Assembly: GCF_002843385.1 (NCBI RefSeq)
Contig: NZ_MVDE01000032.1
Span: 1 to 59,320, forward strand
Source of the DNA: Labilibaculum manganireducens
GTDB taxonomy: Bacteria > Bacteroidota > Bacteroidia > Bacteroidales > Marinifilaceae
Direction of reading: 5' to 3'
Length of the DNA: 59,320 nucleotides
Numbering within the stretch: position 1 is the first letter of the stretch; each line of letters starts with the position of its first letter. The notes beneath the pieces were generated by a model. The model saw only the letters and a list, made by a program, of their open reading frames with translations, was not told the origin of the DNA and did not search any database. This document shows, in pieces, positions 396-42,906 of the stretch. The position numbers were made by a program, and so were the translations under genes.

Positions 396-422
396 AAACC
401 AACATTTCCTTTTCCATATCCA

Positions 423-554
423 CGACCACAACGGTCGTGGTGCTACGACTACAACAGTCGTGCTACTACGACCACAACGGTCGTGGTGCTACGACCACAA
501 CAGTCGTGGTACTACGACTACAACGGTCGTGGTACTACGACCATAACAGTCGTG
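423..554. repeat. Six tandem 23-bp hairpin repeats
   Basis: Five full copies and one partial copy of a 23-bp unit start at 423, 446, 469, 492, 515 and 538. Each unit contains a small inverted repeat, for example CGACCACAACGGTCG, with a five-base loop. Copy 1 has CGACC paired with GGTCG and copy 2 has CGACT paired with AGTCG, so the inner base pair changes on both arms; copies 4-6 carry C-A or T-G at that place. Most copies end GTGGTnCTA. The array ends 28 bp from the probable 5' splice site of the left intron. It sits in a gap between that intron and the HU-like gene and has no clear coding content. Confidence 0.8.
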
Positions 555-39677: not shown

Positions 39678-39828
39678 GTTTATTGGGATATGGGTTTGCT
39701 GAACAAGGGGTAAAAGTAAGATTAATATTTTCTGCGGCAAAAAAAATGCACAGCCCCAACCTTTACATACAAAACACTAAGAATATTTTATTTTCAGCTG
39801 GCTAAAGCTGCAATAGATAAAAACACAA

Positions 39829-39978: not shown

Positions 39979-40007
39979 TTGTTCAATTAAAAAAAATACT
40001 ATATTTG
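39979..40007 (+). promoter_or_regulatory. Bacteroidota-type promoter upstream of the 41-bp array
   Basis: TATATTTG at 40000-40007 matches the -7 consensus TAnnTTTG exactly, and TTG at 39979-39981 lies 18 bases upstream, in the range of the -33 element. Transcription would start near 40013 and run through the whole repeat array into the DUF6261 gene, giving a leader of about 550 nt. Confidence 0.6.
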
Positions 40008-40161
40008 TTATTCTCACTGCACAATAAACTTAAATAAGTTGTTATAAAAGAGATATAGATCTACAGCGCGAGTGTTTTTGATCAGTAAACACATCAACAT
40101 ACATTGAAAAATATTGTTTTTTGATCAATAAACATATAGTTAAAAACAGAGAAATGGATCT

Positions 40162-40518
40162 TTTGCCACGTGTACTCAGTACAAAGCCTGAAAACCTGGG
40201 TTTTTGCCAAATGCACTGAGTACAAAGTTTCACAACTTGAGTTTTTGCCCCGTGACTATTTAGTGAAAGCCCGAAAAATTGGTTTTTTGCTTCGTGACTA
40301 TTTAGTGAAAGCTCGAAAACTTAAGTTTTTGCCACGTGTACTCAGTACAAAGCCTGAAAACCTGGGTTTTCACTCCGTGTAGGGAATACAAAGCTCGGAA
40401 ACTTGAGTTTTTGCCCAATGTACTAAGTACAAAGCTCGAAAACTTGGGTTTTGACACAATGTAGGGAGTACAAAGCTTGAAAACTTGGGTTTTTACACAA
40501 TGTACTGAGTACAAAACA
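40162..40518 (+). repeat. Tandem array of 41-42-bp units with two co-varying palindromes each
   Basis: Units start at 40162, 40203, 40244, 40286, 40328, 40369, 40410, 40451 and 40492 (last partial). Two degenerate units may precede them (TTTTTGATCAGTAAACA near 40075 and TTTTTGATCAATAAACA near 40118, 43 bp apart). Palindrome A sits mid-unit: TGTACTCAGTACA in units 1 and 5, TGTACTAAGTACA in 7, TGTACTGAGTACA in 9, TGTAGGGAGTACA in 8, TGACTATTTAGTGA in 3 and 4. Palindrome B spans unit borders: AAAACCTGGGTTTT (1, 5), AAAACTTAAGTTTT (4), AAACTTGAGTTT (6). Arms change together or to G-T pairs. Units 3 and 4 are 42 bp. There are no unique spacers, so it is not CRISPR. A DUF6261 gene starts 49 bp after it. 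Confidence 0.92.
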
Positions 40519-40566
40519 AAAATAACAGTTGAATAATCCATAAATATTAATTTAAAATAACAAGTT

Positions 40567-41295
40567 ATGACATTGATTTCCAGAATTAAGACAACCAGTC
40601 GCAATGGCGACCTTAGTGCATTATTAAGCCTTATTCTAAAAGCATTTTCACAATACGATTGGAGTACTGACACTTATTTAACTTCTATTATTGCAAAAGT
40701 AAGTGCAATAAACACGGCACTCACCGAGGCTTTGAAGCGATTAACGATTTACTCTCAATTGGCAGAGAAAGACCATGTGCGCGATATGGAAATTAAAGCC
40801 TTGTTTAAGTTGGTAGAAGGCTATGTACATATTCCTATTGTTGAACTACAAAATGCGGCTCTGGTAGTAGACAATGTATTGGAGCAATATGGTTTGAGCA
40901 TACAGAAAGAAGATTATTCCGAGGAATCGGCAGATACTGTCTCCTTACTCAACGATTTAAGTAAACCCGATGTTGCAGCTGCTATAGCAAAACTGCAAGG
41001 GGTCGCAGAAACGGTTGCAAATCTAGATGCAGCTCAAAAAGATTTTGAAAATTTAGCCTTGCAGCAAGCCAAAGGCGAGAGCGTGAAGAAAGATTTAGCT
41101 TCGGCAAGTCAATTGAAGAAAGAAGGCATCACAACGATTAATGATGACTTGATGGGCTATATGAACACCATGGCAAAGGTAAACCCTGCCGTTTATGAGG
41201 CTACCACCAAAACAATTGCCGAGTTAATCGCTAAAAACAATGAATTGGTAAAACGACGTTACAAAACAAACGAGGTAGATACCGAATTGGTTTAA
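40567..41295 (+). CDS. DUF6261 family protein
   Basis: 242 residues, soluble, strongly helical, without signal peptide. It resembles the Bacteroidota family DUF6261: TLISRIKTTSRNGDLSALLS at the start, then long helices (AINTALTEALKRLTIYSQLAEKD, DMEIKALFKLVEGYVHIPIVE), an acidic loop (residues 117-126, EDYSEESADT), and a C-terminal helical hairpin ending NNELVKRRYKTNEVDTELV. The function is unknown. No catalytic motif is visible; it looks like a structural or nucleic-acid/protein-binding helical bundle. It follows the 41-bp array in the same predicted transcript and is closed by a terminator-like hairpin. Confidence 0.8.
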   Translation: MTLISRIKTTSRNGDLSALLSLILKAFSQYDWSTDTYLTSIIAKVSAINTALTEALKRLTIYSQLAEKDHVRDMEIKALFKLVEGYVHIPIVELQNAALVVDNVLEQYGLSIQKEDYSEESADTVSLLNDLSKPDVAAAIAKLQGVAETVANLDAAQKDFENLALQQAKGESVKKDLASASQLKKEGITTINDDLMGYMNTMAKVNPAVYEATTKTIAELIAKNNELVKRRYKTNEVDTELV

Positions 41296-41333: not shown

Positions 41334-41464
41334 GTTTAAAATCATCCCACGCTGGCGGGATTGACTTAGTGCACATATTATAATACAAATAGAAATAAAC
41401 GATTCAATATTAACCGGTAGCCGAAAAGGTTTATAGAGTAGGCATCATTAATAAATTAAAAAAA

Positions 41465-41833
41465 ATGAAAAAGATTTTAATCATTACATTTATGTTGTTT
41501 TTAGGAATAACCAACTTAAAAGCACAAACTAACGAATTAATTGCTAAGACTAAAGAGGTAGCAATACTTGATGCTGTTTTAGATAAAGGATTATTTAATG
41601 ATAATTCCCAAAAATTAGATATTACACTATTTGAATATTACTCTACAGCATATAAAAACAAAAGAAAAGAAATAACTCAATCAACCGGAAGTTCTGCAAG
41701 CCACCCGTCATCCTTATCAGATTATAAAGAGAGATTAGCCGAGTCTAAAGGGCTATGGTCCATAATAGGAAGAATGATGTCATGGGTAAAGAGTGATATC
41801 CCAGAAAATAGTGATGACACGGGAATAAACTAG
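41465..41833 (+). CDS. Small exported protein of unknown function
   Basis: 122 residues starting with a clear signal peptide (MKKILIITFMLFLGITNLKA, cleavage before QTNEL). The mature part is about 100 residues, polar, with a Ser-rich stretch (STGSSASHPSSLSDYK) and a C-terminal helix GLWSIIGRMMSWVK. I do not recognise the family. It lies 170 bp behind the DUF6261 gene on the same strand, between that gene and the REP/RAYT region, so it could be a partner or an unrelated passenger. Confidence 0.6.
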   Translation: MKKILIITFMLFLGITNLKAQTNELIAKTKEVAILDAVLDKGLFNDNSQKLDITLFEYYSTAYKNKRKEITQSTGSSASHPSSLSDYKERLAESKGLWSIIGRMMSWVKSDIPENSDDTGIN

Positions 41834-41997: not shown

Positions 41998-42077
41998 AAA
42001 AAAGAAGAAGAAAACCTTGCAAACGCCCCAGATCTAAATTAATACGTAATATGGCTAAGGATGCTGTTTTTAAAAAT

Positions 42078-42118
42078 GTAGGGTAACCGTAAGGACATTG
42101 CATGCAATGTCCCTACCC
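42078..42118. repeat. REP palindrome
   Basis: GGACATTGCATGCAATGTCC (42093-42112) is a perfect 20-bp palindrome inside a wider frame GTAGGG...CCCTAC. The left arm carries the GTAACCGTAAGG sequence common to the other copies. It is one of several copies upstream of the RAYT gene. Confidence 0.85.
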
Positions 42119-42207
42119 CATACAACAAAAACACGAAGACCTTGGCAAATGCGCCTTATCTAAATTAACACCTGATATGGCTAAAAATGTTGGTTTTTTT
42201 TTAATAA

Positions 42208-42293
42208 AGGATAACCGTAAGGATCTTGCATGCAAGATCCATACAAGCATGCAAGATCCATACAAACACACAATGTCCCTACCACACAATCAC
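42208..42293. repeat. Cluster of REP palindromes directly upstream of the RAYT gene
   Basis: GGATCTTGCATGCAAGATCC (42221-42240) is a perfect palindrome preceded by GGATAACCGTAA; half copies GCATGCAAGATCC and ACAATGTCCCTACC follow up to about 42293. Compared with the copy at 42093 both arms changed together (ACATTG to ATCTTG), so the palindrome is kept. Confidence 0.85.
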
Positions 42294-42309: not shown

Positions 42310-42906
42310 ATGCATCCCAATCGTAAAAATATCCGAAAAAGAAACTACGATTATACCAATACAGGCTGGTATTTTGTGACAATCTGCACAAAAAACAGGG
42401 AGCATTTCTTCGGTGAAATCAGGAATGAAGAAATGCAATTGTCTGTAATTGGGAAACAGGCTCAGATCTTTTGGCTGGAGATCCCTAAACATTTTCCGAA
42501 TGTTGAATTGGGAGAATTCGTAATTATGCCAGATCATATCCACGGAATAATTGGAATTGTAAACCGTAAGGGCGTTGCATGCAAGATCCCTACGGATATA
42601 TCAAACATTGCATGCAAGATCCCTACGAGCAAGATCCCTACGGATACATCAAATAAAAACGAATACATGGCATCCATCTCACCAAAATCAGGAAGCTTAT
42701 CTGCAATAATCAGATCCTATAAATCTGCGCTAACACGATGGTGCGGATTAAATGATTCCCATTCATTTAGCTGGTTAGCCCGCTTCCATGAAAGAATCAT
42801 TCGAAATCAGGAAGAATATAACAGAATTGAGGAATACATTCATTCCAATCCAAAAAAATGTCAAATACAGACGTTGCATGCAACGTCTACATTGAAAAAA
42901 TGTTAA
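42310..42906 (+). CDS. REP-associated tyrosine transposase (RAYT, Y1 HUH family)
   Basis: 198 residues. The Y1-transposase landmarks are present: YTNTGWYFVTICTKNREHFFG, the HUH motif in VIMPDHIHGIIG, and WLARFHERIIRNQEEYNRIEEYIHSNP with the catalytic Tyr region. RAYTs are domesticated IS200-like enzymes that act on REP palindromes. Between residues about 86 and 113 the protein carries an insertion encoded by REP sequence itself (repeated ACKIPTD/SKIPTD peptides), and the C-terminal QTLHATS also comes from a REP palindrome. The flanks carry the same palindromes. It is apparently intact apart from these insertions. Confidence 0.88.
   Translation: MHPNRKNIRKRNYDYTNTGWYFVTICTKNREHFFGEIRNEEMQLSVIGKQAQIFWLEIPKHFPNVELGEFVIMPDHIHGIIGIVNRKGVACKIPTDISNIACKIPTSKIPTDTSNKNEYMASISPKSGSLSAIIRSYKSALTRWCGLNDSHSFSWLARFHERIIRNQEEYNRIEEYIHSNPKKCQIQTLHATSTLKKC
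42562..42642. repeat. REP sequences inside the RAYT reading frame
   Basis: Three copies or part copies: AACCGTAAGGGCGTTGCATG onward (42562-42595), ACATTGCATGCAAGATCCCT (42605-42624) and GCAAGATCCCTACGG (about 42629-42643). They keep the frame open and add about 28 residues between the HUH motif and the tyrosine helix. Confidence 0.85.
42868..42890. repeat. REP palindrome at the 3' end of the RAYT gene
   Basis: GACGTTGCATGCAACGTC (42870-42887) is a perfect palindrome with the shared GCATGC centre and encodes the last residues of the transposase. Confidence 0.85.

Follow-up and report, generated by a model that had tools for sequence, protein, structure and literature searches.

Tandem arrays of fixed period and free sequence upstream of DUF6261 genes

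Most of the DUF6261 (PF19775) genes surveyed here are preceded by a tandem array of 41-42-bp units, and the view that array and gene belong together is strongly supported. As a pair, they resemble a DNA-binding or chromosome-organising system of a kind not yet described. The explanation that we favour, to which we give an even chance, is a DNA-level system in which helically phased dyad sites are bound by a protein, control the DUF6261 gene and mark solo sites, where arrays stand without that gene. DUF6261, a family of no known function, gains in this way a strong partner, namely a DNA array in cis of fixed length and free sequence. If the binding is true, these loci would supply naturally occurring array-protein pairs that may be orthogonal, and a way into the study of regulation or of chromosome organisation in Bacteroidota.

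The array in the window and its recurrence beside DUF6261 genes

The original prediction, made on the window (i.e. the whole 59,320-nt stretch of Labilibaculum manganireducens DNA analysed), had placed about nine tandem units, and perhaps two degenerate ones, between an exact promoter and a DUF6261 gene. All of these elements were recovered (Table 1). The promoter-like motif, TTG followed by 18 nt and TATATTTG, is of the Bacteroidota type. TRF returned a period of 41 and 8.6 copies for the array, the placement of units gave nine of them with successive steps of 41, 43, 41, 41, 41, 41, 41 and 41, and a masked scan added the two degenerate ones. In the unit alignment, stem centres lie at 21.0 and 41.5, with a third at 6.5. 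The array matched no Rfam family (E up to 1), and coding repeats were rejected because the period breaks the reading frame. The downstream protein scores 82 bits with PF19775, which exceeds the curated cut-off of 27.

Table 1. Positions of the features found in the window
Feature	Positions	Strand	Basis or remark
23-bp tandem repeat, 5.8 copies	422-554		
Stretch similar to TTTCAG..GGCTAAAGCC..CTGCAATAGATAAAAA	~39790-39825		upstream of the promoter-like motif
Promoter-like motif, Bacteroidota type	39979-40007	+	TTG 39979-39981, 18-nt spacer, TATATTTG 40000-40007, exact match
Two degenerate units	40082-40160	+	masked unit scan; starts ~40082 and ~40125
Nine-unit array, 41-bp units, dyads ~20.5 bp apart	40161-40515	+	TRF, unit steps, unit alignment
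DUF6261 (PF19775) gene, 242 aa, predicted all-helical, acidic	40567-41295	+	Pfam E 5.6e-23
Rfam RF02914 (DUF805b cis-regulatory RNA)	41411-41444	+	E 3.6e-8; just upstream of the next feature
122-aa secreted-looking protein	at 41465		
Palindromes of form GGACATTGCATGCAATGTCC and 19-bp tandem repeat	42060-42265		beside the next feature
RAYT-like Y1 transposase	42310-42906		PF01797, below cut-off

The recurrence of the arrays was measured by comparing 60 DUF6261 genes, over their 900 upstream bp, with 392 other genes from the same loci in ten genomes, an array being a tandem repeat with a score of at least 100 and a period of 40-43 bp or a double or triple of it. When only the best TRF row was considered, an array was found upstream of 41/60 DUF6261 genes vs 3/392 control genes, and in 1/102 of the controls whose intergenic DNA reached 250 nt or more; the count downstream of the DUF6261 genes was 1/60. 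When any row was accepted, the corresponding numbers were 42/60, 3/392, 1/102 and 1/60. With this any-row rule, the enlarged set has an array upstream of 71/88 distinct DUF6261 genes, after exclusion of the loci whose last 300 upstream nt are more than 90% alike and of four rows with less than 350 nt upstream (L006 and L114, which are the same gene, L031 and L032). The 17 other genes have no array by this criterion, which counts against the DNA-level reading. A later set from three other families, treated with the same rule, has arrays at 10 of its 12 genes, seven of the 12 coming from one genome. The link between arrays and DUF6261 claimed by the original prediction was open to two checks, for DUF6261 genes mostly lacking arrays and for arm covariation (see below), and it was refuted by neither of them.

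Among 21 inspected loci, 15 have a repeat of the 41/42 type, three have no repeat (L102, L022 and L032), and L105, L014 and L039 have other periods only, L039 qualifying as an array when the longer upstream of the 88-gene survey is used. The arrays are present in seven family labels (f1, f3, f29, f41, f69, f70 and f82), and the single DUF6261 gene of f26 (L102) has none. The distribution of DUF6261 is patchy (20/59 relatives, 5/247 genomes of the phylum sample and 7/395 of the class sample), and the gene is multicopy, with up to 16 matches per genome. The genome of the window has nine matches by family search and ten by protein search (E up to 1), and several of these copies have, by eye, differing repeats upstream. 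We also considered carriage by plasmids, phages or viral contigs, which was rejected as relatives of the window protein had no match on them.

Unit period, dyads and co-varying arms

In the 78 arrays, 335/357 steps between units are of 41 or 42 bp. This count allowed steps of 38-45 bp on arrays preselected by a period of 39-44, and a wide scan of periods from 12 to 150 bp placed 41/43 arrays scoring at least 100 at 40-43 bp or at the double or triple of this period (3/71 arrays lacked three placed units and were left out of the unit analysis). Direct repeats of such near-constant spacing, in apparent register with the helix, are a feature of the iteron or centromere type. The array sequences at different paralogues, for their part, look unrelated.

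The best dyad of the units scored 0.604 vs 0.540 after column shuffling (p 2.5e-8), and a second dyad occurs at half the period (p 6e-4), both in 68 arrays. The two palindromes per unit initially described in the window thus hold as a group trend; only 19/68 arrays reach p 0.05 individually, which weakens the DNA-level reading. Two good stems were found in 11/78 arrays, with centres 20.5-21 bp apart in nine of them. As 41-42 bp represent about four turns of DNA, with dyads about every two turns, the sites would lie on one face of the helix.

The two arms of the palindromes had also been proposed to change together, and their pairing is indeed far above chance. In 23 arrays of the orthologue group, the arms form 3.33 of 5 pairs vs 2.27 when the 3' arms are swapped between arrays (maximum 2.52 in 1000 swaps), and perfect hairpins number 25/123 vs 3.2 (maximum 10). 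This test used unfiltered hairpins and left out four arrays; an earlier pairing figure of 0.82 vs 0.49 was discarded, as it considered only the hairpins with at least 3/5 pairs and overstated the effect. One of the arm pairs cited in the original prediction, TGACTA/TAGTGA, does not stand up fully, for its second pair is a G-G mismatch.

Such covariation could be selected in RNA or in DNA. In a repeat-RNA system resembling type III toxin-antitoxins, which we regard as unlikely, the array would form the leader of the DUF6261 transcript, and the protein would be bound and restrained by the hairpin repeats. Knowing that a selected RNA stem tolerates G-U, but not A-C, whereas a DNA dyad should show both equally, it is worth comparing the numbers of G-T and A-C. 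They are 108:108 in a crude count and 22:22 in the first palindrome of the window's group (a count that omits seven hand-chosen arrays of the window's cluster, mostly without the AAGC anchor, and includes L137, a broken gene for which the array was measured from an ATG inside it). At the level of events, on the 47 strong stems (270 pairs) kept from the 78 arrays, they are 44:36 overall (p 0.43), vs 12:0 in four tRNAs used as control. This total comprises 22:8 in the window's cluster, as RNA would show and contrary to the DNA-level reading, and 22:28 elsewhere, including 10:10 in the new families, which together with the first palindrome tells against the repeat-RNA. The sense strand folds slightly better than the antisense strand (44/71 arrays, p 0.025 after correction), a point against the DNA-level reading, and the z value of -5.7 for the sense strand of the window array suits the repeat-RNA, whereas the -4.9 of its antisense strand does not. 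Because the G-T and A-C counts are similar overall, and the sense strand has only a slight advantage in folding, RNA does not seem to be what selection acts on in general; an RNA fold in the repeats may nonetheless apply to the window's cluster.

The distribution of the arms among loci bears on their specificity. In the tree of the window's group, sister paralogues of the same genome differ in their arms (L120/L121 and L131/L133), and three pairs from different genomes, of the handful available, have arms in common (window/L064, L041/L074 and L097/L136). Against the DNA-level reading, some cross-genome comparisons show differing arms (L116 vs the window; L096 vs L125), and single arrays mix different arms, which is unwelcome to a sequence-specific protein. 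A segment of DUF6261 that follows the arm sequence was also sought, and rejected for want of a clear signal.

Promoter-like motifs and solo arrays

In the window's group, 18/23 arrays have the promoter-like motif on their upstream side (2.6 expected), so the order there is motif, repeats, gene, as the repeat-RNA predicts, which is a point against the DNA-level reading. A further point for the repeat-RNA is the unit length, which is close to that of ToxI (36 nt) and CptI (45 nt) (PMC4627078). Against it, in the other groups the motif is commoner in the stretch from array to gene (15/45, 4.6 expected) than ahead of the array (6/45, 3.8 expected). From this motif, and from conserved blocks seen by eye between array and gene in aligned orthologues, it appears that the array probably lies outside the DUF6261 transcript in a fair share of the other groups. 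On the other side, 30/45 arrays of these groups have no motif on the gene side, and cluster 5 (three arrays, counted apart) comprises two arrays with an upstream motif and one with the motif on the gene side; both facts count against the DNA-level reading. In the window, the + strand lacks a terminator-like site in the interval from array to gene, a further point against the repeat-RNA.

The units of the window recur without a DUF6261 gene in its own genome (C2:77496-77862 and C34:14620-14834), and similar solo copies occur in other genomes. Named by eye, the genes that adjoin these copies are heavy-metal-domain-lipoprotein-like in four genomes and thioredoxin-like in four genomes. A second repeated element, TTTCAG..GGCTAAAGCC..CTGCAATAGATAAAAA, follows the solo arrays L155, L156, L178, L180, L182 and L184. 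Of the 15 solo loci, 12 were used for the tests (omitted: the near-copies L179 and L186, and L188), and 11 for that of the arms. Promoter-like motifs upstream of them (2/12, 1.1 expected) are no more frequent than by chance, again unlike what the repeat-RNA requires. Hence the hairpin RNA put forward by the original prediction finds no support as a general rule, whereas its alternative of paired protein-binding sites fits better.

Solo arrays and the linked arrays of the same genome have arms in common in 10/29 cases vs 3.2 expected (permutation p 0.01). This sharing fits sites used in trans, with gene conversion as a plain alternative; to the detriment of the DNA-level reading, 6/11 solo arrays have no arm in common with the linked arrays of their own genome.

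Arm sharing within a genome would also suit a selfish or mutational satellite, which replication slippage, gene conversion or a Y1/RAYT transposase would spread and homogenise and template switching would render perfectly palindromic, with no benefit to the cell. Solo arrays that persist where DUF6261 is absent or a remnant agree with it (by eye, the gene start seems retained at two solo sites, L186/L187 and L189), as do the Y1 transposases within 10 kb of DUF6261, which are somewhat frequent (10/94 matches, some of them orthologous, with roughly 4 expected, by hand count in 20 genomes). Nevertheless, we hold the satellite to be improbable: it leaves unexplained both the single period across seven families with unrelated sequences and the concentration upstream of DUF6261, and Y1-like neighbours lie within 5 kb at only about 10/60 loci.

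Proposed mechanism and comparison with known systems

The DUF6261 protein itself gives few clues. The window protein has a pI of 5.0, and 85 DUF6261 proteins have a median pI of 5.2 and a net charge of -6. The family is thus acidic overall, but carries a short basic segment close to its C terminus. The structure models are all-helical and poor (pLDDT 65, the mean for the window protein, and 58) and no PDB entry matched them at E 0.001 or better, so that inferring function from fold was abandoned. All 25 members analysed with Pfam match DUF6261; the other matches, each of a single member with E 2.6e-4 or weaker and none of them ToxN-like, were S_100, ARM_UBP24, DUF6377 and LigXa_C, then PRK00893 and DarG in NCBIfam, and HEC-01B and SP_VI in PADLOC. 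In these searches we found no relatives of known function, and we recognised no RNase family, including endoribonucleases of the ToxN/AbiQ kind, which is unfavourable to the repeat-RNA.

We also recognised no DNA-binding family or fold, and this, with the acidity, is an argument against the DNA-level reading and for an operator array, in which the repeats would serve an unrelated regulator and DUF6261 would merely be the regulated output. The nearness of the arrays to promoter-like motifs agrees with such a scheme. We nonetheless judge it very unlikely, as one and the same regulator would have difficulty in recognising the unrelated sequences of all paralogues, and as there is no constant partner gene: no family occurs at more than 12/60 loci (ORFs of at least 100 aa within 5 kb).

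Returning to the DNA-level system, we propose it from the following lines of evidence. First, the arrays are associated with the gene. Second, their period is fixed, their sequence is free and dyads occur as a group trend. Third, their arms co-vary without overall wobble preference. Fourth, the position of the promoter-like motif is variable and solo arrays exist. In the proposed mechanism, the array would be a row of dyad sites every 41-42 bp, with a second dyad near half a unit, and with this spacing of about four turns all sites would lie on one side of the helix. The array would be covered cooperatively by a dimeric or multimeric protein, perhaps DUF6261 itself, to form a nucleoprotein structure, which would control the adjacent DUF6261 gene and mark further chromosomal sites, i.e. 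the solo arrays. Each paralogue would have its own arm sequence, so that the systems of one genome need not cross-talk. The purpose of the structure may be autoregulation, perhaps chromosome organisation or segregation. A bolder extension, which we think doubtful, is a chromosomal address system: the paralogues would polymerise on, or bridge, the arrays with their own arms, at their own gene and at solo sites, arms and protein would diverge together, and up to sixteen mutually insulated systems would organise one chromosome.

We found no description of the array-DUF6261 pairing in the open-licence literature; subscription papers may contain one. In that literature, PF19775 was not found, Labilibaculum with tandem repeats gave nothing, the 41/42-bp tandem repeats were all eukaryotic among the matches listed, and DUF6261 appears in daptomycin-resistance work on a Streptococcus.

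Three known systems can be compared with these loci. Similarly to REP elements and their RAYTs, the window has palindromic intergenic repeats of 20-40 bp and a RAYT-like gene 1 kb downstream. REPs carry a GTAG or CGTC end (PMC3733652). Unlike them, the DUF6261 units form tandem arrays of locus-specific sequence with no enrichment of these tags: 4/78 arrays have GTAG in half or more of their units vs 14.8 after column shuffling, and 8/78 have CGTC vs 10.0.

Similarly to the type III toxin-antitoxins ToxIN, CptIN and TenpIN, whose repeats vary in sequence and length between members (PMC4627078), tandem repeats of similar length stand directly upstream of one protein gene. Unlike theirs, the units of the DUF6261 arrays have a fixed length and are dyads that show no wobble preference overall. 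Moreover, outside the window's group the promoter-like motif often stands on the gene side, solo arrays of the DUF6261 type exist, and DUF6261 is not a recognised ribonuclease.

Lastly, plasmid rep iterons and centromere-like arrays such as parC and parS are helically phased repeats that precede the gene encoding their binding protein, sometimes with extra sites. Whereas iterons of one replicon family share sequence, DUF6261 arrays share the period only, and their genes are multicopy (up to 16), have no plasmid match and belong to an unrelated protein family. The likeness lies in the repeats upstream of a gene, presumably phased and bound by a protein, with extra sites elsewhere.
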